Virus record (IMG/VR): IMGVR_UViG_3300007639_000002
Coordinates: 1 to 64,000 of that record
Origin: a virus
DNA length: 64,000 nt
Strand: one strand, 5' to 3'
Made by a program: the position numbers and the translations under genes. Positions 45,131 through 58,001 of this stretch are shown one piece after another (positions within the stretch are counted from its first letter, which is position 1; each line of letters starts with the position of its first letter). Below the pieces are notes generated by a model, which was given only the letters and a program-made list of their open reading frames with translations, made no database searches and was not told the DNA's origin.

Positions 45131-45167
45131 AGTATAGCACCGCTACCTTACTGGTCACGAATCCTAG
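45131..45167 (-). promoter_or_regulatory. Promoter block 1 (non-ATG +1)
   Basis: CTAGGATTC, GTGACC (45153-45158), 16 nt, TATACT (45131-45136), 6 nt, +1 A at 45124. The 5' end of the block overlaps the stop of the 45164 gene. No start codon is at +1, unlike most copies. Confidence 0.65.
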
Positions 45168-45358
45168 GCGAGTAACAACTCCCTGTGCTTCCGAGCCACT
45201 TCCATGTCTAACAGGTTCACCAGTGCATGAGCCAGTACGTCGTACTCGGCTTCACGCCCTGCTAAGACTGCGCCAATATCATCCACCATTGTCTGCATCA
45301 CATCTACCAATGCGACTGCTGTAACCATTTGCTTGCTGAGTTGTTTTGTTGTTGTCAT
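45164..45358 (-). CDS. Small helical protein, 64 residues
   Basis: MTTTKQLSKQMVTAVALVDV followed by QTMVDDIGAVLAGREAEYDVL and ALVNLLDMEVARKHRELLLA: almost entirely helical. The ATG is at the +1 of its promoter block. The TAG stop is inside the next block, in CTAGGATTCG. Function unknown. Confidence 0.65.
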   Translation of the reverse strand: MTTTKQLSKQMVTAVALVDVMQTMVDDIGAVLAGREAEYDVLAHALVNLLDMEVARKHRELLLA

Positions 45359-45397
45359 ACTGCCACCTTACCATGTCCCTGCTGGGAGTCACGATTC

Positions 45398-45589
45398 CTA
45401 GATTTCCTCTTCCCAGTCTGAGTTCAGGCGCTCCAATGCCCGCAGTTCCTCCGCCACATCAAATGCAGTAGCGCATGGTGTGCAGAAGTATAACTCAGTG
45501 AGCCACCTGTCCGAGTACATAGGCTCGTGCGTTGGGCTAGGTATTGGAGCGTTGCATTCAACGCAGGTGTTTTGTGTTGTCGTTGTCAT
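45398..45589 (-). CDS. Small zinc-ribbon protein
   Basis: A 63-residue protein with CVECNAPIP near residue 8-16 and LYFCTPCATAF near 34-44: two CxxC knuckles, a likely zinc ribbon. The rest is acidic (EELRALERLNSDWEEEI). The ATG is the +1 position of its block (leaderless). Function unknown; probably nucleic-acid or protein binding. Confidence 0.65.
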   Translation of the reverse strand: MTTTTQNTCVECNAPIPSPTHEPMYSDRWLTELYFCTPCATAFDVAEELRALERLNSDWEEEI

Positions 45590-45656
45590 GCTTCCAACCT
45601 ATCACATGACCCTCTCAGGTCACGATTCCTACATAATGAGAATGATTCTCAACTAA

Positions 45657-45672
45657 TGTTCCACGTGGAACA
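45657..45672. promoter_or_regulatory. parS-like palindrome 2
   Basis: TGTTCCACGTGGAACA, identical to the copy at 44668. It lies in a 177-bp gene-free stretch between the zinc-ribbon gene and the 53-residue gene at 45767, only 20 bp from the third copy. Confidence 0.8.
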
Positions 45673-45692
45673 TTCCTAGAGTTGGGGCTATA

Positions 45693-45708
45693 TGTTCCAC
45701 GTGGAACA
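45693..45708. promoter_or_regulatory. parS-like palindrome 3
   Basis: TGTTCCACGTGGAACA, third identical copy. Its flanks (TA at the 5' side, TTGG at the 3' side) differ from copy 2, so identity is confined to the palindrome core plus an A/T pair. Centre-to-centre distance to copy 2 is 36 bp. Confidence 0.8.
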
Positions 45709-45766
45709 TTGGTGCGGAGCGTAGGCAGGTATCCACCTACCCACACCCACCCAGCCATTGCTGGCA

Positions 45767-45928
45767 CTACTTGGGAGCACATGATGCCCAGTGCTCCAAT
45801 GCCCACTCTGCCCATGCGTTATGATCCAATGCCCACATATCCAGCGTGACAGTCTCGTCACAATAAACGCAGTGAGCGTTCAAGTACTGTGGGCATTCCA
45901 TGTCGTTGATGTTCTGTGTTGTTGTCAT
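45767..45928 (-). CDS. Small Cys/His protein, 53 residues
   Basis: MTTTQNINDMECPQYLNAHC followed by VYCDETVTLDMWALDHNAW and AEWALEHWASCAPK. Cys12, His19, Cys20 and Cys23 could bind a metal ion, and the C-terminal half is Trp-rich and helical. The ATG is at +1 of its block. Function unknown. Confidence 0.6.
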   Translation of the reverse strand: MTTTQNINDMECPQYLNAHCVYCDETVTLDMWALDHNAWAEWALEHWASCAPK

Positions 45929-45967
45929 GTAACCAACCTATCATCTAGTGGCTCTGAGTCACGATTC

Positions 45968-46135
45968 CTAGTCCCTGTATTCTTGGGCGTTGTTGTAGTG
46001 ATATAGAGCCATGGCGTACTGTTGCTTTTTCAGGTCTGCGTATTTGCAAACCTCTGCCCTGTCTGCGTATTTCTTGGACAATCCCATGTAGTAGTCGTAT
46101 TGCTCTTTATTGGTAAATTGTTTTGTTGTTGTCAT
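45968..46135 (-). CDS. Small Tyr/Lys-rich protein, 55 residues
   Basis: MTTTKQFTNKEQYDYYMGLS and KKYADRAEVCKYADLKKQQYAMALYHYNN: helical, with Tyr repeated every three to four residues. The ATG is at +1 of its block. The stop TAG lies in the next block. Function unknown. Confidence 0.6.
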   Translation of the reverse strand: MTTTKQFTNKEQYDYYMGLSKKYADRAEVCKYADLKKQQYAMALYHYNNAQEYRD

Positions 46136-46174
46136 GTCTCCAACCTATCACGCCACCCACGTGAGTGACGAATC

Positions 46175-46369
46175 CTAGATAAATATATTCTGATACTCAT
46201 TTTGCGCATAGTACTCAGTGCGTAACCTTTCAGCACTGTTCATGAACCTACCCTCAGCCCGTGTTAGACCATAGGTGTACTCATGTGCCTTTAATGCATT
46301 CATCAGGTCTTCCAAAGCCTGCATTATTTTGATCTCAGTATCTGATAGTTGCTGTTGCGTTGTTGTCAT
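46175..46369 (-). CDS. Small helical protein, 64 residues
   Basis: MTTTQQQLSDTEIKIMQALE, then DLMNALKAHEYTYGLTRAEGRFMNSAERLRTEYYAQNEYQNIF. One amphipathic helix region and a Tyr-rich end. The ATG is at +1 of its block, whose -35 is GTCACC. Function unknown. Confidence 0.6.
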   Translation of the reverse strand: MTTTQQQLSDTEIKIMQALEDLMNALKAHEYTYGLTRAEGRFMNSAERLRTEYYAQNEYQNIFI

Positions 46370-46408
46370 GCTTCCACCTTACCCTAGGGTCACCTTTGGT
46401 GACGATTC

Positions 46409-46576
46409 CTAGAACCTTGTATCTGTCACTGGGCGAACCTGCATATCCCTATGGCTGAGCCAATAGACGTTGCAGGCTTGGCGACTGCCGACCATGACTA
46501 CACACTTACGTGAAGAGTCATAGACTTCATGTGCTTTAGTGCTGGGCTTTACCTTTTTCATTTGCGTTGTTGTCAT
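46409..46576 (-). CDS. Small basic protein, 55 residues
   Basis: MTTTQMKKVKPSTKAHEVYD, then SSRKCVVMVGSRQACNVYWLSHRDMQVRPVTDTRF. Basic with strand-like CVVMVG and VYWLSH. Start at the +1 ATG. Function unknown. Confidence 0.6.
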   Translation of the reverse strand: MTTTQMKKVKPSTKAHEVYDSSRKCVVMVGSRQACNVYWLSHRDMQVRPVTDTRF

Positions 46577-46615
46577 ATCCACACCTTATCAGGTCACCCT
46601 GCTGGGTCACGAATC

Positions 46616-46864
46616 CTACTTCAGCATTGCTTTCAGTTCAGCCTTCACCACACGTGCCGTGTCTCCACGCCATGCAGATGCATTGCTGAGGAAATAGGCG
46701 ACGATATCCCTAGCGGAGTCGTACCCATATGAGCCACTGATAGAGTCCAGCGAACGCATAGCGTCTAGGTACGGCACAGCACCAAAGTATGGCTTTTTCC
46801 AGTCTGCACTAATGTCACGTGCAATGGTTGATATTGGGCGATGTTGTTGTTTTGTTGTTGTCAT
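46616..46864 (-). CDS. Small protein, 82 residues
   Basis: MTTTKQQHRPISTIARDISA then DWKKPYFGAVPYLDAMRSLDSIS and DIVAYFLSNASAWRGDTARVVKAELKAML. A YGYDSARDIVAYFL segment reads like the tail of a helical accessory domain that follows the A-M-x-S-L pattern. The start is at the +1 ATG. Function unknown. Confidence 0.55.
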   Translation of the reverse strand: MTTTKQQHRPISTIARDISADWKKPYFGAVPYLDAMRSLDSISGSYGYDSARDIVAYFLSNASAWRGDTARVVKAELKAMLK

Positions 46865-46903
46865 GTAATTACCTTATCAGTTAGTCGGGTTAGGTCACGA
46901 ATC

Positions 46904-47113
46904 CTAGATGTTATGTCCATCTAGTTCAGTTATTTTGGCGATTGCCAAAGATAGTACAGGCTTCAGCCCTAAGAGGAACATCCACACGCCGATCATCTCA
47001 GTGCGTAGTTCATCATCCTTTAGGGCATCTTCCACGGCAGTGTTCCATTCACCGAGCCTGCCCAGTACTTCTAATGTTGATGGTAGTGGTTTGGTTGTTG
47101 TTGTCGTTGTCAT
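46904..47113 (-). CDS. Small acidic protein, 69 residues
   Basis: MTTTTTTKPLPSTLEVLGRL then GEWNTAVEDALKDDELRTEMIGVWMFLLGLKPVLSLAIAKITELDGH. The ATG at 47113 is the +1 of the block and is preferred over the GTG two codons upstream. A mid-protein hydrophobic stretch (IGVWMFLLGLKPVLSLAI) may be an amphipathic or membrane segment. Function unknown. Confidence 0.55.
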   Translation of the reverse strand: MTTTTTTKPLPSTLEVLGRLGEWNTAVEDALKDDELRTEMIGVWMFLLGLKPVLSLAIAKITELDGHNI

Positions 47114-47122
47114 GTTCACACC

Positions 47123-47314
47123 TTACCAGCCTGCTGGCTCTAGTGACGATTCCTGATGCTCTTCTACTAGGTTGTCGTAGCACCATGTGCATACGTCAGT
47201 TCCCCAGTCTTCAGGGTCAAATCCATTATGCCCATCCACGATAGGGATCAGCATAGAAGATGCTCCACACCGTTCGCAGGCTCCGATATAAATGTTGTTG
47301 TTGTTGTCGTTCAT
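47123..47314 (-). CDS. Small zinc-ribbon protein, 63 residues
   Basis: CERCGASS near residue 13-20 and VCTWCYDN near 41-48 are two CxxC knuckles, so a zinc ribbon. The C-terminus (HQESSLEPAGW) reads straight through the next promoter block: the stop TAA is part of that block's -10 TAAGGT. The start is at the +1 ATG. Confidence 0.65.
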   Translation of the reverse strand: MNDNNNNIYIGACERCGASSMLIPIVDGHNGFDPEDWGTDVCTWCYDNLVEEHQESSLEPAGW

Positions 47315-47353
47315 GTAATCACCTTACCACCTAGGAGCGTTAGGTCACGAATC

Positions 47354-47587
47354 CTAGATACCTTTCATATCGCAGATGTAATTGTGGCGAGCGTCAAAGT
47401 ACCAGTCAGACTCTTGAAAGGCTTGCTCGTCGCTGGGCGTTCCATCCTGTGCATATGCCATGAACTCTGCCCAGTTATCTAGGTAGTCGTCAGAGCCAAT
47501 GTAGGACTCTTCCCATTCTTCTATATCTTCAGGTGTTACGACTAATTTAGCCGATTCCATGTCTTCCACAGATGTGTATGTGAACAC
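47354..47587 (-). CDS. Small highly acidic protein, 77 residues
   Basis: A GTG start, six bases after GGAGG, in the leader of a block whose +1 (47616) is ATC rather than ATG. The protein is rich in Glu and Asp (TPEDIEEWEESYIGSDDYLDNWAEFMAY), resembling DNA-mimic antirestriction proteins, though no family was recognised. The stop is TAG inside the following block. Confidence 0.55.
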   Translation of the reverse strand: MFTYTSVEDMESAKLVVTPEDIEEWEESYIGSDDYLDNWAEFMAYAQDGTPSDEQAFQESDWYFDARHNYICDMKGI

Positions 47588-47646
47588 TATGTGCCTCCGT
47601 TGTTGTCGTTGTTGATAGTTCTAACTTAGCACGTCACCCTGCTGGG

Positions 47647-47826
47647 TCACGAATCCTGCCGTGTGTCCATGTTCCACAGAATGCACTTAGCATCTTTTAA
47701 GATGTTGTATAGATTCATCTCTTCCCATGTCATGCCATAGTACCCATCACGCTGGGTCAAATCAGCCATGAACATAGTAAGCGTTTCATACATTTCAGTG
47801 TTGGTTATTTTCTTTGCTGTTTTCAT
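47647..47826 (-). CDS. Small protein, 59 residues
   Basis: MKTAKKITNTEMYETLTMFM then ADLTQRDGYYGMTWEEMNLYNILKDAKCILWNMDTRQDS. Helical and Met-rich. The stop TGA is inside the -35 GTGACC of the next block. The start is the +1 ATG. Function unknown. Confidence 0.55.
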   Translation of the reverse strand: MKTAKKITNTEMYETLTMFMADLTQRDGYYGMTWEEMNLYNILKDAKCILWNMDTRQDS

Positions 47827-47871
47827 ATCTTCACCTTACCATGTAGTCGGGTTGAGTCACGATTCCTAGTG

Positions 47872-47942
47872 GGTATATTTGGTTAGATTAGCCTCAATAT
47901 ACCAGTGAGGTGCTTTCCCCGCTAACCATGCGGGTTTTCGTT
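47872..47942 (-). ncRNA. Candidate structured small RNA 1
   Basis: A promoter block (-35 at 47971-47976, -10 TAAGTT at 47949-47954) points to a +1 A at 47942, which is AAC, not ATG. The RNA has a CCCGC/GCGGG hairpin (47917-47935 region) with an AUGGUUA loop. Further down GGUAUAUU (47896-47903) pairs with AAUAUACC (47872-47879), an 8-bp perfect stem. No Shine-Dalgarno-led reading frame longer than 11 codons is present. The first bases (AACGAAAACC) are shared with the next RNA's start. Probably a small noncoding RNA. Confidence 0.45.
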
Positions 47943-47989
47943 AATCCCAACTTACCATGATGGAGTGTTGGGTTACGATTCCTAATAAA

Positions 47990-48050
47990 GGATGGCATTC
48001 AATGCCTTAGGAGGTGTCATGAATGCCACCCTCTATTAGTTGTCGTCGTT
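47990..48050 (-). ncRNA. Candidate small RNA 2 with anti-Shine-Dalgarno loop
   Basis: A block (-35 at 48079-48084, -10 TAGGTT at 48057-48062) points to a +1 A at 48050 (AAC). The RNA ends in a 12-bp hairpin (48020-48031 with 47990-48001) followed by UUUAUU, so it also looks like an intrinsic terminator. The 18-nt loop contains CACCUCCU (48009-48016), which is identical to the 3' end of 16S rRNA. A 12-codon open frame (ATG in the loop) has no clear Shine-Dalgarno. It is probably a small regulatory RNA, alternatively a terminator. Confidence 0.45.
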
Positions 48051-48089
48051 AATCCCAACCTACCACGTGGGTAGGCTGGGTCACGATTC

Positions 48090-48296
48090 CTAGAGGCTGA
48101 TATGCGCTCCTGAGAGCAAGTCTTCAACCTCATTGCGGATGGTGTCGCTGATGCTGTCACTGAAAGATGAGTTATCAGTGAAATCGTATTCATGGAGGAT
48201 GTCGTTAATGCGATCCTCCAAAGCATCTACTACTTGGTTCATTACCTTGTCACTGATTGCATTGACAAGTTGATTAAGCAATTCTTCCATGGTCAT
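48090..48296 (-). CDS. Internal start of the preceding frame, 68 residues
   Basis: The block copy with +1 at 48324 (ATC) gives a leader of 28 nt carrying GAAAGG, so the ATG at 48296 could be translated separately: MTMEELLNQLVNAISDKVMN and on to SGAHISL. The protein is acidic and helical. Which of the two forms is made cannot be told from sequence. Confidence 0.5.
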   Translation of the reverse strand: MTMEELLNQLVNAISDKVMNQVVDALEDRINDILHEYDFTDNSSFSDSISDTIRNEVEDLLSGAHISL

Positions 48297-48515
48297 GTTG
48301 TTAGTGCCTTTCGTTGTTGTTGATGAGTTCACTTTATCAGGTGGTTGTACTGAGTCACGATTCCTAGACTCCATGGCGATTTGCTCTTCATGATACTCAC
48401 GTAATAACTCTACGGTATAGTTCATGTAGATACCCTTTGCCATGGCATCTTCTACTTCAGTCTTTGCCATTAGTAAATGGAACACTTTAAGTTGTTGTTG
48501 CGTTTCGTTGTTCAT
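48090..48515 (-). CDS. Acidic two-part protein, 141 residues as one frame
   Basis: The ATG at 48515 (+1 of a block) opens MNNETQQQLKVFHLLMAKTE and continues YTVELLREYHEEQIAMES. The frame then reads without a stop through a second block (SRNRDSVQPPDKVNSSTTTKGTNN) into a helical acidic domain MTMEELLNQLVNAISDKV. This may be a fused protein or a long frame holding a second gene with its own promoter (48090-48296). Here the linker residues come from promoter DNA. Function unknown. Confidence 0.5.
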   Translation of the reverse strand: MNNETQQQLKVFHLLMAKTEVEDAMAKGIYMNYTVELLREYHEEQIAMESRNRDSVQPPDKVNSSTTTKGTNNMTMEELLNQLVNAISDKVMNQVVDALEDRINDILHEYDFTDNSSFSDSISDTIRNEVEDLLSGAHISL

Positions 48516-48554
48516 GTAAGCACCTTATCAGGTGACATTGTTAGGTCACGATTC

Positions 48555-48782
48555 CTAGCGAATCTCTACAACCCTGCCTAAGCAAGTGAGTAAGTTGCCT
48601 ACGCTCGTAGTGGTTTCCCCTGCCGTGGTGGTGATAACTGCATCATCACCCACTACTTCTACAGAGATAACCCTTGTAATGATTGGGCGTGAGACAGGTG
48701 TCCATGATGGAATGACGATAAACTCGCCTTCTATAATTTGGTCAGCCCGTACTGTGAATGCTGGTTGTTGTTTCGTTGTCAT
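48555..48782 (-). CDS. Small beta-rich protein, 75 residues
   Basis: MTTKQQPAFTVRADQIIEGE then IPSWTPVSRPIITRVISVEVVGDDAVITTTAGETTTSVGNLLTCLGRVVEI. Strands dominate and it reads like a small beta-barrel. The start is at the +1 ATG. Function unknown. Confidence 0.55.
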   Translation of the reverse strand: MTTKQQPAFTVRADQIIEGEFIVIPSWTPVSRPIITRVISVEVVGDDAVITTTAGETTTSVGNLLTCLGRVVEIR

Positions 48783-48821
48783 GGTTTCACCTTATCATGT
48801 TGAGTTGGTAGGTCACGAATC

Positions 48822-49133
48822 CTAGTATGACCTGAACACGTAACCATCAAGTTCCCACACGTCACCACCTAGTTCTAGGTCACGTGCGAATGACTCATAG
48901 TCAAAGTATCCAGTTTTGACTGCTTCAGAAAAGATATCGTCTGCCAACTCTTCAGCGTACTCACGTACTGATGTGACTGCTACGTAGGCATCCTCAAATG
49001 CTGATACTTCGCTGTCGTAGTCTTTGGTTATGCCAAGGTTCCAGCAGTAGATGGCAAAGGCTTGCTCGTCTATGTTGTTGTCTTCTGCTACCTGTGCAAT
49101 TTCTGCGTTGCTGTATTTATGTGTTGTTTCCAT
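48822..49133 (-). CDS. Short ArdA-like antirestriction protein
   Basis: A 103-residue acidic protein. IYCWNLGITKDYD near residue 28-40, then AFEDAYVAVTSVREYAEELADDIF near 45-68, and YFDYESFARDLELGGDVWELDGYVFRSY at the end. This matches the C-terminal region of ArdA antirestriction proteins (F-x-D-A-Y and Y-x-x-E-x-FARDLE-x-GG-D patterns), which mimic DNA to block type I restriction enzymes. Full ArdA is usually about 160-180 residues, so this is a shortened form. It is leaderless from its block. Confidence 0.65.
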   Translation of the reverse strand: METTHKYSNAEIAQVAEDNNIDEQAFAIYCWNLGITKDYDSEVSAFEDAYVAVTSVREYAEELADDIFSEAVKTGYFDYESFARDLELGGDVWELDGYVFRSY

Positions 49134-49172
49134 ACCTGTACCTTACCCTCTAGTAGTTGTTAGTCACGAATC

Positions 49173-49358
49173 CTAGAACGATGTTCCTACCAGCGCATTA
49201 TCAAATGTGCGATAGATTACAATGCTCCTAGTTTGGTCTATAGATTCCCACATGGATGCCAACCACGTTGGCAGGTGTGCATCATGCAGTGTGCGTATGT
49301 ACGTTTGGGGGTCACCCTCTAGTTGATATTGTACTTCTACTTTTTTCGTTGTTGTCAT
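49173..49358 (-). CDS. Small protein, 61 residues
   Basis: MTTTKKVEVQYQLEGDPQTY then IRTLHDAHLPTWLASMWESIDQTRSIVIYRTFDNALVG. Strand-helix-strand pattern. The start is at the +1 ATG. Function unknown. Confidence 0.55.
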   Translation of the reverse strand: MTTTKKVEVQYQLEGDPQTYIRTLHDAHLPTWLASMWESIDQTRSIVIYRTFDNALVGTSF

Positions 49359-49397
49359 GGTTTCACCTTAGCATTCTGAGTTAGTGGGTCACGAATC

Positions 49398-49652
49398 CTA
49401 CAACTCAAAAGAATGCAGTATCTTAGACGTTTCGTCTTGTGAATGTTTATTGGATGTCCAAAAGTGAACCTCTGTACGTGTGTAGATACCACCATGGCAC
49501 ACCATGCCTAGGCGATTACGTGCTTCTTTTTCTGCACGTTCTTCATTGTCGTAGTCTGCACCACCTACGTAGTCTTCGTTGTTGTCCCAAAAGTGTACTG
49601 TGTACCCTGAAGCAATATCTTGATTCATGTTGTTGCCTTTCGTTGTTGTCAT
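49398..49652 (-). CDS. Small protein, 84 residues
   Basis: The +1 ATG (49652) begins MTTTKGNNMNQDIASGY. The same leader also carries GAAAGG before ATG at 49628 (MNQDIASGYTVHFWDNNED), so both leaderless and Shine-Dalgarno-led starts are possible. The rest is acidic with two WDNN/FWTSN strands and EERAEKEARNRLG. Function unknown. Confidence 0.55.
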   Translation of the reverse strand: MTTTKGNNMNQDIASGYTVHFWDNNEDYVGGADYDNEERAEKEARNRLGMVCHGGIYTRTEVHFWTSNKHSQDETSKILHSFEL

Positions 49653-49682
49653 GTAATCAACTTACCACGTGGTGGTGTTAGG

Positions 49683-50048
49683 TCACGAATGCAGTTCCCG
49701 CATTTTGACCAACCCAACCTGATAATTGGCGGTATTGGTCAAGTTAAGCCACCAGCCAGTGACGAATCCATTTTCGTATTCGTCACAGATATGCTCGTTG
49801 TATTCGCCATGCTCGGTGAGAAGATCACCCAGTAGTTCGTTGATGGATTCCCCTGCCCATTCACCTGATAGTGGTGATGGTGGCATGAAATCGTCGGGGA
49901 GATCACACTCGTCATATAGGCGAAGGAACTCTACATATGTTTCCTGCGTAGTGTTACCGTCAAAGATCCATGATGATGCATTCTTGCCAGCAACTAATCC
50001 ACGAATGTATGCATCATATGCATCAGTTGTTTTGGTTGTTGTGTCCAT
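49683..50048 (-). CDS. Acidic protein, 121 residues
   Basis: MDTTTKTTDAYDAYIRGLVA followed by WIFDGNTTQETYVEFLRLYDECDLPDDFMPPSPLSGEW and ESINELLGDLLTEHGEYNEHICDEYENGFVTGWW. Many acidic residues. The start is at the +1 ATG. It overlaps no neighbour except for the stop of the next gene in the block. Function unknown. Confidence 0.5.
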   Translation of the reverse strand: MDTTTKTTDAYDAYIRGLVAGKNASSWIFDGNTTQETYVEFLRLYDECDLPDDFMPPSPLSGEWAGESINELLGDLLTEHGEYNEHICDEYENGFVTGWWLNLTNTANYQVGLVKMRELHS

Positions 50049-50057
50049 GTGAGTACC

Positions 50058-50282
50058 TTACCCTGCCTTGATGTCCAGTGACGAATCCTGCCATACTTCT
50101 TTGTCTTCTTTAAGTTTGTATGCCCATTTGTATGCTGTGTTCATTGCTGTCCACATTTGGCTGTATGGGGAATTGAATGAGTCTTCTTGATGAGCGTGTA
50201 AGTTGTAGCACACTGATTCCAGTGCATCTATCGCATTAAATAGTTCTTCAAGTGTCATGTCTTCGTTGATGTCGTGTTTCAT
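50058..50282 (-). CDS. Helical protein, 74 residues
   Basis: MKHDINEDMTLEELFNAIDA then LESVCYNLHAHQEDSFNSPYSQMWTAMNTAYKWAYKLKEDKEVWQDSSLDIKAG. Mostly helical. It reads through its downstream block so that TAA is the first half of the -10 box for the 50048 gene. The start is at the +1 ATG. Function unknown. Confidence 0.55.
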   Translation of the reverse strand: MKHDINEDMTLEELFNAIDALESVCYNLHAHQEDSFNSPYSQMWTAMNTAYKWAYKLKEDKEVWQDSSLDIKAG

Positions 50283-50321
50283 GTTGTCACCTTATCATTT
50301 TGTTGTTGGTAGTCACGAATC

Positions 50322-50831
50322 CTATCCATACACCACCTCACCAAAGAGAATGAATTGCAGAATGGAGTCTGCTGTGAGAGCGTCGTACCAACCATCAAAG
50401 GCATCATCATCGTTGAAATAGATGGCACGTAAGCATTGCAACGCAGTCTTACCCAGTTGTCCATGGTCAGGTACGTTCTCCTGTGAGAACTCACCTGTGC
50501 CTACCTTGACGATAAAATCTATAACCATTTGCTCGTTGATAGGGTAAGCCTTGCCATAGGTGAACCATTCATCCCAGTCGTTTATTCCTTCTTGAAAACC
50601 ATGTTCTTTGTTGGCATACAGTGGGTGGGTTTTGTCCACCTCTGTTACTTCTTCTTCTACGTAGATGGTTGCGCTACAGTACTGATCAGTGTTACCCAAT
50701 TCGTACTCTCCGTTTGCACTTCCCCATTTGTAGTTCTTGCGAATCGCCCAGTACCCACATCCTAGTTCCAAAGCATCTGTAAGAATTGTGCAGGCTCCGT
50801 ATGTCATTTGTTGTTTATTTGCTGTTGTCAT
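50322..50831 (-). CDS. Unknown acidic protein, 169 residues
   Basis: Contains CGYWAIRKNYKWG near residue 25-37, YVEEEVTEVDKTHPLY near 57-72, EWFTYGKAYPINEQMVIDFIVKVGTGEF near 87-114, and CLRAIYFNDDDAFDGWYDALTADSILQFILFG near 132-163. The acidic Tyr/Trp-rich pattern recurs in this island. No domain was recognised. Leaderless from its block. Confidence 0.5.
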   Translation of the reverse strand: MTTANKQQMTYGACTILTDALELGCGYWAIRKNYKWGSANGEYELGNTDQYCSATIYVEEEVTEVDKTHPLYANKEHGFQEGINDWDEWFTYGKAYPINEQMVIDFIVKVGTGEFSQENVPDHGQLGKTALQCLRAIYFNDDDAFDGWYDALTADSILQFILFGEVVYG

Positions 50832-50870
50832 GTCATCAACTTATCAGGTGAGTGTGCTGAGTCACGAATC

Positions 50871-51329
50871 CTACCAACTACTTTGATAGGAGAACTGGTA
50901 CTCTTCGTCAAGAGACAGCGCATTTTTAATGATGGAAATTGAGTACTCTAGGCTCTCAAAGTACCACTCGTCGTACTCAATGTTGCCAAAGAAGAAACCA
51001 CTAGCGGTGGGTAACAGGTCATCGGCAAGGCTATGGTCACCTAGAACCTGTTCGCAGACGTTCATTAACTCCGCAAGTTTCTCACGTGACACGTATGCAT
51101 CTTGGCATTCATCTACGCCATCCTGTACGTTGTCCACGAACCACTGGTGGATGGCGTTGGCTTTACGCCAGTAGCCCACCATGCACCGTACTGTGATAGA
51201 TGGATAGTCAGTGTCTAGTTCAATGTCTAATACTTTCCTGACTGCATGGTACGCTTCATTAACGTCGTCACCGTAGTGTGATGCTGGTGAGAGGTAGCGT
51301 TCTGCTTTGAGGTACTGATCTAATCCCAT
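50871..51329 (-). CDS. MGLDQYL-family phage protein, 152 residues
   Basis: It starts MGLDQYLKAERYLSPA and contains YWRKANAIHQWFVDNVQDGVDECQDAYV near 53-80 and LLPTASGFFFGNIEYDEWYFES near 105-126. This pattern (MGLD-x-YL, WRKAN-x-IHxWF, GFFFG-x-x-YD-x-Y) marks a widespread phage and plasmid family of unknown function. The leader begins AGTAACAAC and has AAAGGA before the ATG, so this one is not leaderless although its block is normal. Confidence 0.65.
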   Translation of the reverse strand: MGLDQYLKAERYLSPASHYGDDVNEAYHAVRKVLDIELDTDYPSITVRCMVGYWRKANAIHQWFVDNVQDGVDECQDAYVSREKLAELMNVCEQVLGDHSLADDLLPTASGFFFGNIEYDEWYFESLEYSISIIKNALSLDEEYQFSYQSSW

Positions 51330-51426
51330 GTTGTTATCCTTTTGTTGTTGGTTGTTGTTACTGAAGTTACTTTATCATGTTGTTGTTATGAGTGGCGAAT
51401 CCTGTGGAATACACCGATTTCTACGA

Positions 51427-51453: not shown

Positions 51454-51479
51454 GAGCAAACCGATGTACTCCACATGAC

Positions 51480-51674: not shown

Positions 51675-51919
51675 AACTCTTCCCCGTTTTCGTCAGTGAA
51701 GATCAGGTCAGAGATATCTGTCTGATGACCCCAGCCACATGAAAAATCATCAGTCTTGGCAAGATGTTCAATGTGCTGAACAACATCGTCTAACGTGATG
51801 TCCATGTCTTCATCTATGTCACTATTGAGAGTCCTGATGTCTTTGATTACGTCGTACACGTCATAAGTTATTACTTTTGTAACGTTGATGTACTTGGGTA
51901 GTTCTGTTGTTTCGTTCAT
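51671..51919 (-). CDS. Acidic protein, 82 residues
   Basis: The ATG at 51919 (MNETTELPKYINVTKVITYD) is at the +1 of its block; the ATG 6 nt upstream is too close to the -10. It is rich in Asp (DVIKDIRTLNSDIDEDMDITLDDVVQHIEHL) and ends WGHQTDISDLIFTDENGEEL. Coupled to the downstream membrane protein. DNA-mimic-like, function unknown. Confidence 0.55.
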   Translation of the reverse strand: MNETTELPKYINVTKVITYDVYDVIKDIRTLNSDIDEDMDITLDDVVQHIEHLAKTDDFSCGWGHQTDISDLIFTDENGEEL

Positions 51920-51958
51920 ATCCATACCTTATCTTGTTGTTAGTGTTAGTCACGAATC

Positions 51959-52360
51959 CTAGATATTGGCTTCCCAGTCAATATCAGAGTCATAAATGTC
52001 AATGCCAAAACGTGAGTCCCAACGCCATACTTCCTCAAAGGCAACGGTATCTGCACGAACCATTACCCTGCCACGAATGAAACCCTCTTCAGGATTAGTC
52101 TCGTCTGCGTTCCATTGTTTCACGTACTCACCTACACACTCGTACACGTAGCCCTGTAGGGCATCTACGTGCTGTGGGTTATCTAAACACCATGTGTTTT
52201 CTATCACGTCTACGAGCATCCCCATGACCATTAGTTTTGGGTTGCTTTCGCACATATTTATGATGCGATTGAGCATACGCTCTATTTCGCTTGCTGGTAA
52301 TACACCATCCCAGTACGCCATGGTTTCTTGCTCGTAGTACAAGCCTTCACAGCCATCCAT
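51959..52360 (-). CDS. Acidic protein, 133 residues
   Basis: MDGCEGLYYEQETMAYWDGV followed by SEIERMLNRIINMCESNPKLMVMGMLVDVIENTW and YVYECVGEYVKQWNADETNPEEGF. Helical, acidic. The ATG overlaps the TAA of the upstream gene (TAATG). No own block, so it is cotranscribed. Function unknown. Confidence 0.5.
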   Translation of the reverse strand: MDGCEGLYYEQETMAYWDGVLPASEIERMLNRIINMCESNPKLMVMGMLVDVIENTWCLDNPQHVDALQGYVYECVGEYVKQWNADETNPEEGFIRGRVMVRADTVAFEEVWRWDSRFGIDIYDSDIDWEANI

Positions 52361-52809: not shown

Positions 52810-52825
52810 AGTTGTACCTTAGCCT

Positions 52826-53068
52826 TCAGAGGCTGTTACTCACGAATCCTAGTTTGTCAAGGATAGCGTCACGTACCCATTCAATATCAGGACAAATCTC
52901 ACATACATCGTACTGATTGCATATTTCTGCCCATGCATCTTTGGTAAGTACTTCATAATCATCATCGTCATAAAGGCTTGATGCCCATTCGTATGAGTAG
53001 ATGTCACAACAGATGTCGTCGTCATCTTTTAAGTTTGCGATAATCTCTTTTAAGGTTGATACCTTCAT
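52826..53068 (-). CDS. Very acidic protein, 80 residues
   Basis: MKVSTLKEIIANLKDDDDIC then CDIYSYEWASSLYDDDDYEVLTKDAWAEICNQYDVCEICPDIEWVRDAILDKLG. Two DDDD runs and several Cys. AGAGG precedes the ATG, so it is Shine-Dalgarno-led. Its last codons (FVSNSL) are in the next block. Possible DNA mimic. Confidence 0.55.
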   Translation of the reverse strand: MKVSTLKEIIANLKDDDDICCDIYSYEWASSLYDDDDYEVLTKDAWAEICNQYDVCEICPDIEWVRDAILDKLGFVSNSL

Positions 53069-53205
53069 GTTGTTTCCTCTATTAGTTTTTCTAGTTTGTT
53101 AATGAGTTCTAGCATTTCATCTGTCAATGGACTGCACCACGTTGTCTTAACGTTACGTAGTTCTGTCAATAGCAGGTGTAAGCCAAAATCTAATTGCTGT
53201 GTCAT
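53065..53205 (-). CDS. Small helical protein, 46 residues
   Basis: MTQQLDFGLHLLLTELRNVK then TTWCSPLTDEMLELINKLEKLIEETT. The start has AGAGG seven bases before the ATG. The TGA overlaps the next ATG (ATGA). It is helical with leucine heptads. Function unknown. Confidence 0.55.
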   Translation of the reverse strand: MTQQLDFGLHLLLTELRNVKTTWCSPLTDEMLELINKLEKLIEETT

Positions 53206-53483
53206 TGTGTTACCTCTACATTCACTATATTATGAACAGAGCCTGAGTCACGAATCCTAGAGAACGTGCTACCTTTTGTCGGGTCTGTGCGGATGAAATA
53301 GAATGAGTCTGCCCACTGATGGATATCGTCGGCAATGTCTTCATTCATGGCGACTACCTGCCCATGCTCATGGTCAATATAGACTGCCAGTTCACCGTCT
53401 TCTGTTATATACAATCCGATATACCAATCGCCCATCATTATCTGTGCGGAGTTATCGGTTTGCTCAATGTAGTTGTTACTCAT
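53202..53483 (-). CDS. Acidic protein, 93 residues
   Basis: MSNNYIEQTDNSAQIMMGDW then YIGLYITEDGELAVYIDHEHGQVVAMNEDIADDIHQWADSFYFIRTDP. The C-terminus (SRIRDSGSVHNIVNVEVTQ) reads through a promoter block that serves 53205. Coupled to the previous gene (ATGA). The beta pattern is typical of small phage proteins. Function unknown. Confidence 0.5.
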   Translation of the reverse strand: MSNNYIEQTDNSAQIMMGDWYIGLYITEDGELAVYIDHEHGQVVAMNEDIADDIHQWADSFYFIRTDPTKGSTFSRIRDSGSVHNIVNVEVTQ

Positions 53484-53725
53484 AAACAGAACCCATTACA
53501 ACGTGGGAATCCGCAGGCTGGGCAGTAAGACTCTTCTTCTTCTTCTTCTTCGTCTTTTGTGATGCCAAAGATGGTATAACCAGCCTCAACCAAAAGGTCA
53601 GCAACTAGGTCTAATGACTCACCATCGGTGTACTCGTACTCTAGGTCTTTGGGATTAGAACCTTCAACACGCTTTTCTAAGATGTTGATGATTTCTTGAA
53701 TGAGTTCGTCGTTTGCTGTTGTCAT
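53480..53725 (-). CDS. Small acidic protein with C-terminal zinc knuckle
   Basis: An 81-residue protein. MTTANDELIQEIINILEKRV and ITKDEEEEEEESYCPACGFPRCNGFCL: an acidic poly-Glu stretch then C-x-x-C-x4-C-x3-C at the end, a probable zinc knuckle. Leaderless from its block (spacer 17). Function unknown. Confidence 0.55.
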   Translation of the reverse strand: MTTANDELIQEIINILEKRVEGSNPKDLEYEYTDGESLDLVADLLVEAGYTIFGITKDEEEEEEESYCPACGFPRCNGFCL

Positions 53726-53734
53726 ATCATCAAC

Positions 53735-54016
53735 TTACCATACTGGTGGTGCTAGGTCAGGATTCCTGAGAGAAGAGGTATTTGGGATTACGTCACAGTT
53801 CATTAAATAAATGGCGTTGCTGAGTAGTGATGAAAGTTCATCTTCATTGTCAATGTACTCCCCGTCACCAAGATAAGCAACAGACCATTCATGTGTGTCG
53901 TTGTGCTGTACTGTGCCGTCAGAGAAATGCTCTTCCTCAGCGTTAGTATCCCATTCCCACTTGTTGGTGGATGAATCGTATGAGACTATGAAATAGTGTG
54001 TATGGTTTCCGTTCAT
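53735..54016 (-). CDS. Small acidic protein, 93 residues
   Basis: The ATG at 54016 overlaps the TGA of the upstream gene and starts MNGNHTHYFIVSYDSSTNKW. EEEHFSDGTVQHNDTHEWSVAYLGDGEYIDNEDELSSLLSNAIYLMNC follows. The C-terminus (NPDLAPPVW) and TAA lie in the next block. Function unknown. Confidence 0.55.
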   Translation of the reverse strand: MNGNHTHYFIVSYDSSTNKWEWDTNAEEEHFSDGTVQHNDTHEWSVAYLGDGEYIDNEDELSSLLSNAIYLMNCDVIPNTSSLRNPDLAPPVW

Positions 54017-54174
54017 TGTGTTACTTCCTCTATGTCTGTTGTGTTCCATGTTTCTTGCTCGTCTACACACCATGACTCGTTGCTGTCAAAGAGTTGTTTA
54101 GCCTGTTCAATGCTGTCGGCATCTACTTCGTGGCGGTAGTGAGTTACTTTTTCGTATGTGAGTGTGTACTTCAT
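54013..54174 (-). CDS. DpnD/PcfM-like small protein
   Basis: A 53-residue protein, MKYTLTYEKVTHYRHEVDAD then SIEQAKQLFDSNESWCVDEQETWNTTDIEEV. The strand with alternating hydrophobics, the A-D-S-x-E-x-A helix and an acidic end match the small DpnD/PcfM-like fold. The ATG at 54174 overlaps the preceding TGA (ATGA). A paralogue lies next to it, and another at 55766. Function unknown. Confidence 0.55.
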   Translation of the reverse strand: MKYTLTYEKVTHYRHEVDADSIEQAKQLFDSNESWCVDEQETWNTTDIEEVTQ

Positions 54175-54365
54175 GCTGGTTCTTCCTCTTCTACATCTTC
54201 TACATCCCATGGAGTGTTCCACTCACGAAAGCCCCACATATCTTTTGACTCTAAATCGTCATCTGTGAACTTATCGTAAGCCTCTAGCGCACCCTCTTCT
54301 GAGTCTGCTTTAATTTCGTAGCAGTGGCTAATTACTTCATCTACACGTACTAAATAAGTTTTCAT
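54171..54365 (-). CDS. DpnD/PcfM-like small protein
   Basis: A 64-residue protein, MKTYLVRVDEVISHCYEIKA then DSEEGALEAYDKFTDDDLESKDMWGFREWNTPWDVEDVEEEEPA. The same strand, A-D-S-E-E-x-A-x-x-A helix and acidic end as the neighbour. Its leader begins AACGACAACG and has GAAAGGA before the ATG, so it is not leaderless. Function unknown. Confidence 0.55.
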   Translation of the reverse strand: MKTYLVRVDEVISHCYEIKADSEEGALEAYDKFTDDDLESKDMWGFREWNTPWDVEDVEEEEPA

Positions 54366-54425
54366 GTTGTTCCTTTCGTTGTCGTTATTTACAACTTACC
54401 ATTAGAAGTGTGTTGGTCACGAATC

Positions 54426-54809
54426 CTACGTAGCGTCACTCATGACGAATGCCGATACACAAGCCTGCTCGTACTCTTCTGCATTGCGTACCCCATAGAA
54501 GAAATGGTCACCAGCACCTGTAGTAATCTCTGCCCACGTCATCAGTGAGTCTGTTGTGATGTCTCCATTGTCTAGGATCACTGTTCCCCACATAGCGTCG
54601 GCAACAGACATGACGTACTCTTTAATGTTTTCAGCCATATCAAAATGATCTACGTAGTCAATACGCCACCTGCCTTCACAGGGGAACCCACTCTCTAGGT
54701 CTACTGGCTCATTCTCATTGGCAGGTATAAACCCCACAAGTGTAATGTCATCTACATTCTCCACCAGCATTGCTAGGCGGTCATACTTTTGGTTAGAGTC
54801 CGATGGCAC
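54426..54809 (-). CDS. Small acidic protein, 127 residues (start chosen from Shine-Dalgarno)
   Basis: A GTG at 54809 follows AGAGG by six bases and is chosen; an ATG at 54845 would overlap the preceding gene by 53 bp. From the GTG it reads (M)PSDSNQKYDRLAMLVENVDD, GFIPANENEPVDLESGFPCEGRW near 22-45 and AEITTGAGDHFFYGVRNAEEYEQACVSAFVM at the end. The function is unknown. It is cotranscribed with the Api92-like gene. Confidence 0.5.
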   Translation of the reverse strand: MPSDSNQKYDRLAMLVENVDDITLVGFIPANENEPVDLESGFPCEGRWRIDYVDHFDMAENIKEYVMSVADAMWGTVILDNGDITTDSLMTWAEITTGAGDHFFYGVRNAEEYEQACVSAFVMSDAT

Positions 54810-55392
54810 TACGCACCTCTTCTTCGCAGGCTTCACGTGCTTCAATGTATGCGTTGTCTACACGCTCCCACATGGTGTCCATGTCAGTATCCTCAAAACT
54901 ACCCTCTACCGTGATGTTCTCTGTGAACGAAGAATGCCATTGACCGTCATGGTATGAACTAGCACCTGCAAAGCCCATGCCCTGCTCGTCATAAGACAAA
55001 ACAAACTTAAAGTTTGGATACAACGTAGAGATATGCTCAAAAGCCTTTTCGGGTGGTGCCCATGCTGAGTTGAAGTAAAACGAACGGTAGCCGATGTCTT
55101 CGCCACCCATCTCAGTATCGTAATCACCCCACTTGGTTCCCCAGTTGTCACAACACCAGTCGTACCAATCCTTGTGACCGTACTTGGCGATGTTCGCCTC
55201 TTGTTGTATGCGATGCTCTTCTGCTTTATCTGCACCCATGAAGCCTGCCACTGTCTCGTATAGTTCTGTAGGGCAAGGGTAAAGAGAACGTATGATCTTT
55301 ATACGCCCGTCTACTGTGATGTCTTCTACAAACTTCTGTAGTGCTAATTCGTTACCCCATACGTAGAGGTTATTACTGCAATCGTTAGGCAT
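54793..55392 (-). CDS. Api92/YubB-like protein
   Basis: A 199-residue protein with MPNDCSNNLYVWGNELALQKF at the start, then PCPTELYETVAGFM near 38-52, DWYDWCCDNWGTKWGDYD near 75-92, and FNSAWAPPEKAFEHISTLYPNFKFVLSYDEQGMGFAG near 108-145. The M-P-N-x-C-x-N, NWGTKW and WAPP motifs belong to Api92-like/YubB-type proteins with a ferredoxin-like N-terminal domain. They are widespread in phages and plasmids. The function is not established. It overlaps the 113-residue gene. Confidence 0.75.
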   Translation of the reverse strand: MPNDCSNNLYVWGNELALQKFVEDITVDGRIKIIRSLYPCPTELYETVAGFMGADKAEEHRIQQEANIAKYGHKDWYDWCCDNWGTKWGDYDTEMGGEDIGYRSFYFNSAWAPPEKAFEHISTLYPNFKFVLSYDEQGMGFAGASSYHDGQWHSSFTENITVEGSFEDTDMDTMWERVDNAYIEAREACEEEVRSAIGL

Positions 55393-55726
55393 TTACTTTC
55401 CAATCTTCTATGATGCGGTTATTTTTCATGTCTTTTACAAGTAGGCGTACCCACTCAGACGTATTTGCAAATCCAACTTCTTCGCCGTCGTCGTACTCAA
55501 CTGGGTACACGGTGACCATGATGTTTTCATCACCGAACTCATCGTTATAGTCCCATGCAAAAGTGTTGAAATCAAAAGCCAAATCCCCGATGATGATAGA
55601 TTCCCATGCATCTTCGTCGCCAGTGAACTTACGGCGAGAACGGTGATTCTTCTTAAGTATCTTGTAAGCGTGTTTCATTAACGCTTTTTTATTTTGTTTA
55701 ATGTCTTGAAGAGTTGATGTTTTCAT
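55385..55726 (-). CDS. Unknown protein, 113 residues
   Basis: MKTSTLQDIKQNKKALMKHA then YKILKKNHRSRRKFTGDEDAWESIIIGDLAFDFNTFAWDYNDEFGDENIMVTVYPVEYDDGEEVG. Basic N-terminus then acidic. Leaderless from the block at 55726. Ends in overlap with the Api92-like gene. Function unknown. Confidence 0.5.
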   Translation of the reverse strand: MKTSTLQDIKQNKKALMKHAYKILKKNHRSRRKFTGDEDAWESIIIGDLAFDFNTFAWDYNDEFGDENIMVTVYPVEYDDGEEVGFANTSEWVRLLVKDMKNNRIIEDWKVNA

Positions 55727-55765
55727 ATATGCACCTTATCATTGAGAGTGGTTGAGTCACGAATC

Positions 55766-55972
55766 CTATTGCTGTTCAATAAGAAAAGATGGGCGTTCAA
55801 TAGTTGAGTGAGTACCCTCTACGACTGTGATGCCGTAGTGAACTTCACCCCAACCTAAAATGTCTGTAGGGTCATTGCCTAACAATGCTTCGTACACAAG
55901 GTCTTGTGCCTGCATTTCGTTCTTGGCTTTGACAAAGTATGTTCCTGTTGCTGTTACTGTGTAGTAGTTCAT
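55766..55972 (-). CDS. DpnD/PcfM-like small protein
   Basis: A 68-residue protein, MNYYTVTATGTYFVKAKNEM then QAQDLVYEALLGNDPTDILGWGEVHYGITVVEGTHSTIERPSFLIEQQ. Similar strand-plus-helix pattern to 54013 and 54171. The start is at the +1 of the minus-strand half of the divergent promoter hub. Confidence 0.5.
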   Translation of the reverse strand: MNYYTVTATGTYFVKAKNEMQAQDLVYEALLGNDPTDILGWGEVHYGITVVEGTHSTIERPSFLIEQQ

Positions 55973-55978
55973 ACCGCC

Positions 55979-56048
55979 ACTTTAACTCACGTGATGGCTG
56001 AGTCACGAATCCTAGGAATCGTGACTGAAGCAGGTAGAGTGCTAAGTT
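55979..56048. promoter_or_regulatory. Back-to-back divergent promoter pair
   Basis: Two promoter blocks meet head to head and share CTAG. Minus: -10 TAAAGT at 55979-55984, -35 at 56001-56006. Plus: -35 GTGACT at 56021-56026, -10 TAAGTT at 56043-56048. The shared core AGTCACGAATCCTAGGAATC followed by GTGACT is a near-perfect palindrome of 26 bp. It divides leftward and rightward genes and would fire both. Confidence 0.75.
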
Positions 56049-56054
56049 GTGTTT

Positions 56055-56075
56055 ATGGAAAGGGACAACACATGA
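56055..56075 (+). CDS. Six-codon leaderless mini-cistron upstream of helicase
   Basis: The ATG at 56055 is exactly at the +1 of the plus-strand block. The frame reads M-E-R-D-N-T and stops at TGA 56073-56075, which overlaps the helicase ATG at 56072 (ATGA). This may be a coupling leader peptide. AAAGG inside it is also a Shine-Dalgarno for the helicase. Confidence 0.4.
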   Translation: MERDNT

Positions 56076-57961
56076 ATGGTCTTACACCACGACAACAACG
56101 TGAAATACGTGAAGAACTAGACAAACGTCTTACGCCATTAGAAATGGTGAACTGCGTTGATGACTGGATTACGTTGAACGAACTTGACAGGCTTACCTTT
56201 AGGGGAGCCTCTGAGTTACTTGACTATATCGCACGGTTGCCTGTAGAGAGGACTCCTGCGTTAGCGCACGTTCCATCTACCGCCACCAAGATCATCGTCA
56301 ATAGCGCACGAGGGGTTTGTGCGTTATGTGACGAAATGGTAACGGCTGGGCAGGGGCATAAAGCCTTTGTCAATGGGGCATGGAGTGTTTATCATGCCGT
56401 AGACGTTTGCCCTGCCGTTACCGTGACTCCTGTCGTTACATATTCGTCGGGCTTGCGTAAGCAACTTGATGATTTTGTACAAACGTTAGACAAGACAGAG
56501 CCACCGATTCTCCCTGATGAATCATTATTTAATCTTTCTAATGCACACCAATTTGACATAGATTTTGATCTTGAATTACCGCTATTGGGGTACCAAAAGG
56601 CGGCGATTGAATATGCACGTCGTACTCACCGTACCCTTGTATGTCAAGACATGGGGTTGGGTAAAACGCCTATCGGCATTGCCCTGACTCATATTGCTCT
56701 TAATGAGGGTCACAAGGTGTTAGTGGTTGTACCGCCAAACCTTGTCTACCAATGGACATCGGAGTTCAAGAAGTTTGCTCCATGGATTAAGGTGGGCAGT
56801 GTACGTGGGCGTAAGGTCGGCAAGTTGCCCAAGACGGATGTACTCATTATCGGGGACTCCATCGTTGAGGCATGGCAGAATGTCCTTGCGGAAAAGTACA
56901 CCAGCATCATTGTTGATGAGGCACACCGCTTTAAGACTGAATCCAGCGGGCGTTCTAAGGCTCTGACTCGTATTGCATCGTTTGTTCCCAAGGATGGATA
57001 CTGCGTTCTGCTATCGGGAACCATCATTCCTAACCGCCCATCGGAGTTCATATCGCCACTGCGTATCATTGGCAGGCTTGAGCCTGTATTCGGTACTAAG
57101 AAGCAGTTTCAGATTAGGTACTGCGATTATCAGATGGTCAATGGGTTTCCTGTGACGGGTGGAGCCAGCAACGTGACAGAGTTAAATACTTTGTTGCGTA
57201 GCACGTGCTACACACGTACCAAGAAAGTAGATGTACTAGATGACCTGCCACCTAAGCGCAGGGCACAACTAGACGTAGAACTAACTGAGACATCCATGCG
57301 TAAGTACCGTAAGGCTGAGGAGGATTTCCTTGCCTTTGTGTACGAGAACTATGGGAACGATGCTTTTCTCGCTGCATCCAAAGCACCTGTGATTACACAG
57401 ATAAATAAACTCAGGCAACTACTGGGTGAGGCAAAGATAGATTCTGCAAAGGAGCACATACAGTCCTTACTGGACTCAGGTGAGCAGGTCATTGCCTTTG
57501 CGTACCACACCAATGTCCTGAAGACTCTCAAAGAGCATTTTGAGGATCAGGGCGTAGTGATGGTTGCCGGTGGTATGACCGCTGAGGCTAAAGACAAGGC
57601 TGTGCAGAAGTTCACTAGCGGTGAGGCACGACTGTTCTTAGGTCAGTACGAAGCAGCCTCAGTAGGTCTTAACCTACAGGTCGCCAGTCACGTGGTCATG
57701 GTTGAGATGCCATGGTCACCTGCTACTGGTTCACAGGCAGAAGACAGGGCATGGCGTTACGGCAACAAGAATGCTGTAGTGGCATGGTGGCTCACTGCCA
57801 TTGACCCCAATGCCCCCACCATTGACTCACGTATGTGGAGTCTCCTGAACGCAAAGGCAGAGACCATCTCAGCCTGTTTAGACGGGTGGGGAGAAGACAT
57901 GAAGGCTGAAGCAGGTAGCATTACCGCCCTGCTACTTCAAGACATGATGAGTGCTTCGTAG
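56072..57961 (+). CDS. SNF2-family helicase/ATPase
   Basis: A 629-residue protein starting MNGLTPRQQREIREELDKRL. Residues about 165-190 (LLGYQKAAIEYARR and CQDMGLGKTPIGIAL) carry Walker A. IIVDEAHRFK near 278 is the DEAH-type motif II, and VLLSGTIIPNRPSEF near 310 is motif III. QYEAASVGLNLQVASHVVMVE near 525 and WSPATGSQAEDRAWRYG near 548 supply motifs V and VI. It would remodel DNA or protein-DNA complexes. The ATG at 56072 is chosen because the frame further upstream crosses the promoter. Confidence 0.88.
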   Translation: MNGLTPRQQREIREELDKRLTPLEMVNCVDDWITLNELDRLTFRGASELLDYIARLPVERTPALAHVPSTATKIIVNSARGVCALCDEMVTAGQGHKAFVNGAWSVYHAVDVCPAVTVTPVVTYSSGLRKQLDDFVQTLDKTEPPILPDESLFNLSNAHQFDIDFDLELPLLGYQKAAIEYARRTHRTLVCQDMGLGKTPIGIALTHIALNEGHKVLVVVPPNLVYQWTSEFKKFAPWIKVGSVRGRKVGKLPKTDVLIIGDSIVEAWQNVLAEKYTSIIVDEAHRFKTESSGRSKALTRIASFVPKDGYCVLLSGTIIPNRPSEFISPLRIIGRLEPVFGTKKQFQIRYCDYQMVNGFPVTGGASNVTELNTLLRSTCYTRTKKVDVLDDLPPKRRAQLDVELTETSMRKYRKAEEDFLAFVYENYGNDAFLAASKAPVITQINKLRQLLGEAKIDSAKEHIQSLLDSGEQVIAFAYHTNVLKTLKEHFEDQGVVMVAGGMTAEAKDKAVQKFTSGEARLFLGQYEAASVGLNLQVASHVVMVEMPWSPATGSQAEDRAWRYGNKNAVVAWWLTAIDPNAPTIDSRMWSLLNAKAETISACLDGWGEDMKAEAGSITALLLQDMMSAS

Positions 57962-58001
57962 GATTCGTGACTACGTACACCCCTGAGATAAAGTAACAAT
58001 A
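57957..58001 (+). promoter_or_regulatory. Plus-strand promoter block, leadered
   Basis: GTAGGATTC then GTGACT (57967-57972), 16 nt, TAAAGT (57989-57994), 6 nt, A at 58001. The helicase stop TAG is inside the block. The next ATG is at 58037, after a hairpin (58006-58020) and AAAGGA. Confidence 0.65.

Follow-up and report, generated by a model that had tools for sequence, protein, structure and literature searches.

A repeated, predicted promoter block with a lineage-specific box heads small genes, most of them predicted to be leaderless, in a group of probable actinophages

What starts transcription of the many small genes between positions 45131 and 57994 of the virus record IMGVR_UViG_3300007639_000002? 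We analysed the first 64,000 bases of this 79,143-base record (the window). The region contains 33 copies of a directional block of 36 to 37 bp. The array formed by these copies is real, unusually regular and, by its predicted geometry, mostly leaderless. We consider it probable that the block represents a class of phage promoters that depend on a box read by a phage factor together with host sigma-A, with the WhiB-family protein WhiB-1 as the best candidate for that factor.

The block can be written as TAGGAWTCGTGACY-N16-TARRKT. With up to three mismatches allowed, it matched the window 32 times, 30 times on the minus strand and twice on the plus strand. In 100 dinucleotide-preserving shuffles the mean was 0.07 matches and the maximum was 1. 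The reversed pattern gave no matches. Another copy, at 53732-53768 on the minus strand, has a spacer of 17 nt. The total of 33 (31 minus, 2 plus) agrees with the count of 33 given in an earlier prediction made on this DNA, hereafter the original prediction. A scan of the whole record and of its relatives, which that prediction had proposed, confined the copies of this record to one 13-kb region and linked the block to gene starts; no copy was found in the remainder of the record. The plus-strand copies precede a helicase gene and the operon of a DUF932 gene and WhiB-1.

The column profile of the block reads AGGA-W-TCGT-g-AC-Y, followed by an extended -10 (TGN, with G in 29 of 30 copies). The window box, AGGAWTCGTGACY, spans about -41 to -29, counted with the invariant A as +1. 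The TARRKT hexamer is downstream of the box and of TGN, at -12 to -7. Its TA and final T are invariant, and all 30 aligned copies have an A at +1, as in a sigma-A-type promoter with TANNNT at -12 to -7 and a purine at +1. The base at -1 is a pyrimidine in 31 of 31 copies.

An ATG is at +1 in 24 of the 33 copies. The original prediction had given this count, which stands with the correction that 23 of the 24 are true leaderless gene starts by the predicted geometry. Every leaderless copy has its ATG exactly 6 nt past the -10, and no copy has its first start codon offset by 1 to 5 nt from that position. The leaderless copies are all on the minus strand. They are at 45365-45400 (ATG at 45358), 45596-45631 (45589), 45935-45970 (45928), 46142-46177 (46135), 46376-46411 (46369), 46583-46618 (46576), 46871-46906 (46864), 47120-47155 (47113), 47321-47356 (47314), 47833-47868 (47826), 48522-48557 (48515), 48789-48824 (48782), 49140-49175 (49133, an ArdA-like gene), 49365-49400 (49358), 49659-49694 (49652, three mismatches), 50055-50090 (50048), 50289-50324 (50282), 50838-50873 (50831), 51926-51961 (51919), 52816-52851 (52809), 55733-55768 (55726) and 55979-56014 (55972), with the 17-nt-spacer copy preceding the ATG at 53725. 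The last of the ATGs at +1, at 56055, follows the plus-strand copy at 56013-56048, which forms a divergent pair with the copy at 55979-56014. It opens a 6-codon open reading frame (ORF; MERDNT*) that overlaps the helicase ATG.

Nine copies are without a full leaderless gene, the mini-ORF copy included. All nine have an A at +1, and eight have AAGG, GGAG or GAGG ahead of the real start. Leadered copies on the minus strand were located by the motif scan at 47623-47658 (GGAGG ahead of a GTG start), 48057-48092, 48331-48366 (AAAGG), 51369-51404 (AAAGGA), 53224-53259 (GAGG) and 54393-54428 (AAAGGA). The leadered plus-strand copy at 57959-57994 (AAAGGA) drives the DUF932 gene and WhiB-1. The A at +1 is independent of being part of an ATG, which supports it as the transcription start, and transcription would begin there. 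The case for reading the array as promoters is strong. The original prediction of a promoter array with a TANNNT -10 that starts small genes mostly without a leader is supported, with leaderless transcription as the predicted outcome.

Its reading of the box as simply a TTGACA-like -35 did not hold. A TTGACA-like -35 would lie 16 to 18 nt from the -10, and the window has GTGACY at 16 nt. Relatives have C-rich sequences in its place that could not be a -35 hexamer, while the remainder of the block is constant.

We retrieved about 20 relatives with a search anchored on the helicase (SNF2/DEAD-type; 56072-57961, plus strand). Their helicases are 73 to 82% identical to it, and some of these phages barely differ from the window. 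Two long relatives largely share the gene order of the window record, with core proteins mostly 55 to 90% identical. Arrays were present in seven lineages, and an eighth (L065/L066) shows one copy. Strict patterns gave 138 copies, 102 of them leaderless, in nine genomes or fragments; looser patterns that required an A at +1 were set aside for counting. The -10, the +1 A, the ATG and an A/C-rich start are common to all arrays.

The box differs by lineage and is uniform within each. It is AGGATTCGYCACT in L064, AGGATTCGTCCAY in L073, AGGATTTGGACA in L067, L069 and L072, CCCTACCCCAYGCA in L077 and L081, CCYCCYYCGGCTA in L083 and CCCCCCCCnaGCA in L075. Another of the lineage-specific sequences over the -35 position is CCTCGGCTA. 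The distance from the box to the -10 is constant inside each genome. Lineages with C-rich boxes have no recognisable -35 and no TGN. Sigma-A alone should therefore not suffice in these lineages, and an extra factor seems to be needed. In viral and genome collections the exact motif was found only in near-identical phages and as chance single matches.

Do the boxes of a genome change together? We compared orthologous leaderless genes of L081 (F), L083 (G) and L075 (H). Box similarity was about the same for orthologs and non-orthologs (F-G, 0.57 versus 0.55; F-H, 0.62 versus 0.61; third pair, 0.55 versus 0.51). Box copies inside one genome were 0.66 to 0.83 alike. In F-H pairs the flanks of the box keep their ancestry, both in the spacer (0.73 versus 0.45, p=0.014) and in the -10 region (0.84 versus 0.66, p=0.002). 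The F-G and G-H pairs trend in the same direction with weaker p values. The window and L064 gave only four usable pairs and no difference, and none is expected between them because their boxes are alike at all but one or two positions. It is unlikely that gene conversion would replace a 14-bp element and spare its flanks, which leaves a trans-acting reader as the natural cause of this concerted turnover. Judged from the sequence, a trans-acting factor probably reads the box in place of a -35. The case for such a reader overall is good.

Could the box instead be an operator for a phage repressor, with promoter activity from host sigma-A alone? We consider this unlikely. The stoperators of cluster A mycobacteriophages are similar in being numerous, short, asymmetric and oriented with transcription, with a consensus that varies by phage group in step with the repressor, their trans factor (PMC6550527). 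The box also overlaps the -35 position, where a repressor could act. However, stoperators are repressor sites of temperate phages that block elongation, and most are not associated with promoters (PMC6550527), whereas every box here is at a near-fixed distance to the -10 and +1. The C-rich boxes would leave sigma-A no -35, in lineages that are also without an extended -10. The temperate set of a repressor with an integrase or parABS was not found in five records, which may be incomplete. These contained no tyrosine integrase, resolvase/serine integrase, ParA-type ATPase or HTH_3 repressor above the cut-off, which weakens the repressor explanation. Activation, not repression, is what we infer at the box.

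The array might also consist of ordinary host sigma-A promoters of unusual uniformity, with GTGACY as the -35, an extended -10 and no phage factor. The window -35 resembles xTGACx, the extended -10 is present, and extended -10 promoters can manage without a good -35. We regard this explanation as quite unlikely, because the box runs about 8 nt past the hexamer and is nearly invariant, and because relatives replace the whole box and keep the -10. A plain sigma-70 scan of the region gave 12 promoters, fewer than the 23.4 in shuffles, and missed nearly the whole array. A consensus -35 was also available, as relatives have a TTGACA-TAGACT leaderless promoter elsewhere. A host-encoded regulator that reads the box, with turnover reflecting host switching, is highly improbable: concerted turnover requires just a trans-acting reader, but a collection of 84,980 species genomes gave only scattered single matches in unrelated taxa and no host regulon with the motif.

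The preferred explanation remains a phage-specific promoter class read by a phage-encoded factor. In a region of early, host-takeover type, nearly all small genes and short operons would each have one such promoter. Each unit would have a directional box of 13 to 14 bp at about -42 to -29, a near-fixed spacer, a sigma-A-type TANNNT -10 and an invariant A as the start. The box would stand in for the -35 hexamer and would be read by the phage factor with the host sigma-A holoenzyme. Because one factor would read 15 to 33 sites, its specificity would drift along with all of them, so that each lineage would come to have its own box. The T4 middle promoters are a known case of this kind. There, the -35 gives way to a phage-specific box near -30, the promoter keeps a sigma-70 -10 that is often extended, and a phage protein binds sigma region 4 (PMC6755090, PMC7403470). 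The array likewise has a box in place of the -35 and keeps the -10. It differs from the T4 system (MotA box and AsiA) in that the candidate is a WhiB protein, although no search was aimed at AsiA or MotA homologues. Array promoters also merge with the start codon downstream and the stop codon upstream, and relatives have wholly different boxes.

Which phage protein might read the box? No sigma-70 region 2 or region 4 gene was found in any of five records at E values up to 0.1. Two cultured Planktophila phages encode a sigma factor (PMC10202952). The Pfam search gave two WhiB genes and a MerR-like helix-turn-helix (HTH) gene. WhiB was present in all nine further records tested, in two copies in eight of them. 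WhiB-1 (59065-59412, plus strand) belongs to the WhiB family, with a Pfam Whib score of 62.5 bits (cut-off 23.6), four invariant Cys and a GIWAG turn. Its gene overlaps the DUF932 gene (58037-59068, plus strand) and is second in the operon headed by the block at 57959-57994. The corresponding plus-strand block is also ahead of the DUF932-WhiB-1 operon in L064, L081 and L075. WhiB-1 is about 48 to 60% identical between lineages in which the helicase is 73 to 82% identical. Its AlphaFold2 model (predicted local distance difference test score, 77.5) best matched PDB entries 8cwt, 6onu and 8dy9, which are complexes of WhiB3, WhiB1 and WhiB with sigma-A region 4 or RNA polymerase. The predicted fold is that of WhiB proteins that bind sigma-A region 4. 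WhiB-1 is a plausible reader of the box. It would bind to sigma-A region 4 and recruit RNA polymerase, by itself or together with a partner, to all the boxes, that of its own operon included.

WhiB-2 (61418-61834, minus strand) is a second WhiB-family protein. It has a conserved Cys-rich C terminus, with the motif HGSW-RYRQGC-C--C after the WhiB domain. This motif is possibly a second metal- or nucleic-acid-binding unit.

WhiB7 of mycobacteria is a studied example of how a WhiB protein can work at promoters. It activates promoters, its own included, via SigA region 4 and the DNA just upstream of the -35 (PMC3905903). WhiB-1 is similar in being a WhiB-family regulator with possible autoregulation, as it lies in a block-driven operon. 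WhiB7 differs in its C-terminal AT-hook, in its AT-rich site and in retaining the -35, whereas the boxes here are not AT-rich.

Several points weigh against WhiB-1, or against the proposed promoter class as a whole. No AT-hook is evident in WhiB-1. No simple residue code was found to relate WhiB-1 to box type: the C-terminal helix of WhiB-1 differs among L067, L069 and L072, which share a box. Box type goes with the two deep clades of the helicase phylogeny, so WhiB is not singled out. WhiB genes are common in actinophages generally and are the most abundant regulator reported in them (PMC8612146), so that co-occurrence with the array is weak evidence. Other candidates for the reader are the MerR-like HTH protein (77415-77849) and any early protein that carries no annotation. 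Should the array genes be the first to be transcribed after infection, the factor would have to be supplied by the virion, by a basal promoter or by the host. The start sites and leaderless mRNAs are themselves predictions.

Two further phage systems resemble the array in part. The start-associated sequences of cluster K mycobacteriophages, to which the original prediction had likened the block, also occur in many directional copies immediately 5' of genes. The likeness is only loose. These sequences are a 13-bp GGGATAGGAGCCC next to starts, about half with 17-bp inverted repeats upstream, and they were described without a -10 or +1 geometry (PMC3203893). The array does not have GGGATAGGAGCCC directly ahead of the start codon; its consensus differs and ends in a -10. 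Cluster O mycobacteriophages have leaderless SigA promoters whose predicted +1, as here, is the base that opens the start codon (PMC4351075). Those predicted SigA-like promoters number only eight or nine and do not share a box. Cluster O also has 34 palindromic repeats of 17 bp, mostly not linked to promoters (PMC4351075).

How closely is the block packed with the genes around it? The upstream gene ends, in frame, on the box's own TAG in about 20 copies. In copies whose box reads CAGG, that gene mostly stops in the same frame at the TGA of GTGAC or at the TAA of the -10. The promoter, the upstream stop and the downstream start overlap within about 45 nt. On the minus strand there are few terminator-like sites between array genes, which makes read-through from upstream promoters into array genes likely.

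The -10 hexamer may have a second role in the window. TAAGGT serves as the -10 in 16 of 22 leaderless copies, compared with 0 of 9 other copies (p=0.0002). This association was not seen in the C-rich lineages. In a read-through mRNA the AAGG of TAAGGT would sit 7 nt before the ATG. TAAGGT in the window is a possible double-purpose element, acting as the -10 and as a Shine-Dalgarno sequence for read-through mRNAs. As a Shine-Dalgarno sequence instead of a -10 it was rejected as the sole explanation, because the TA and final T are invariant and the middle varies.

Downstream of the start there is a CA-rich run. The original prediction held that the ACA/ACG codons after the ATG are conserved as nucleotides, and this was borne out. 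The run follows the +1 whether or not the sequence is coding: leadered copies have 10% T and 43% A from +2 to +24. Among the 102 leaderless genes CAACGA is found in two reading frames, 27 times in one and 24 times in the other. These two grounds led to the rejection of a Met-Thr-Thr-Thr peptide signal and instead make the run a property of the RNA 5' end or of the initially transcribed DNA. The run may keep the RNA 5' end unstructured for initiation.

Two array copies have no ORF directly after them. One is the last array copy (45131-45166, minus strand; -10 TATACT), and the other is at 47949-47984 (minus strand). The RNAs from these copies (window 47942 and 45124, minus strand) and from a copy in relative G007 (80791, minus strand) have AUGGUUA near the start. 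Two of them form perfect hairpins with the same 7-nt loop and stems of CCCGC/GCGGG and CCCCCC/GGGGGG; the first of these would begin the RNA of the copy at 47949-47984. The hairpin RNA is possibly a small RNA or an attenuator. Rfam gave no matches in the window array region.

Other features were observed in the window and its relatives. A 16-bp palindrome, TGTTCCACGTGGAACA, occurs three times at the far end of the array (44668, 45657 and 45693) and three times in the L064 contig G010 (292, 345 and 433). Two relatives have the palindrome TGTTTCACGTGAAACA (G007 at 80638, 81182 and 81212; G008 at 72256), which corresponds to canonical chromosomal parS. Beside the window palindromes is a weak ParB_N-like gene (44686-44985), but the search for a ParA-type ATPase gave none, so the phage may make use of host ParB. 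A near-consensus TTGACA-type leaderless promoter, unlike the array, precedes a gene starting ATGTC(T/A)AAA in L067 (11923), L072 (7927), L075 (16062) and L077 (17899, minus strand). A tryptophan-halogenase family gene (25783-27270, minus strand; phrog_2928, 367 bits) is located among virion genes.

The WhiB genes and the DUF932 relatives, which are mostly in actinophages, suggest that the host is probably actinobacterial. The terminase is closest to that of Streptomyces phage BRock and its kin (46 to 47%; BRock, 46%). No array was seen in BRock, and most of its early genes that were read have Shine-Dalgarno leaders. The array genes of the window encode mostly small proteins of no known function. 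One is an ArdA-like antirestriction protein (48822-49133, minus strand), which is leaderless and has orthologs under a different box in relatives. Its presence in the array is as expected for early anti-host functions.

What would such an array mean for these phages? We propose that it is a variant of phage-specific, box-dependent promoters, a class in which sigma would be appropriated by a WhiB-type factor, with WhiB as the candidate for that role. More tentatively, these phages may be an uncultured actinophage group in which a WhiB-family sigma-appropriation factor reads a lineage-specific box ahead of 15 to 33 mostly leaderless genes, with the reader and its sites changing together. The paper that reported the abundance of WhiB genes names just one as studied in infection, that of TM4, an inhibitor of a host gene (PMC8612146). 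For work on phage WhiB proteins, the array provides concrete, testable candidate target promoters. It also amounts to a natural experiment in which a single regulator and its dozens of sites change jointly, and it offers compact promoter-start units for use in actinobacteria. If the promoter class is as proposed, the array would be a striking example of viral reliance on leaderless mRNAs for most of an early gene region. If a WhiB protein is the reader, the early programme of each lineage would be private to itself.

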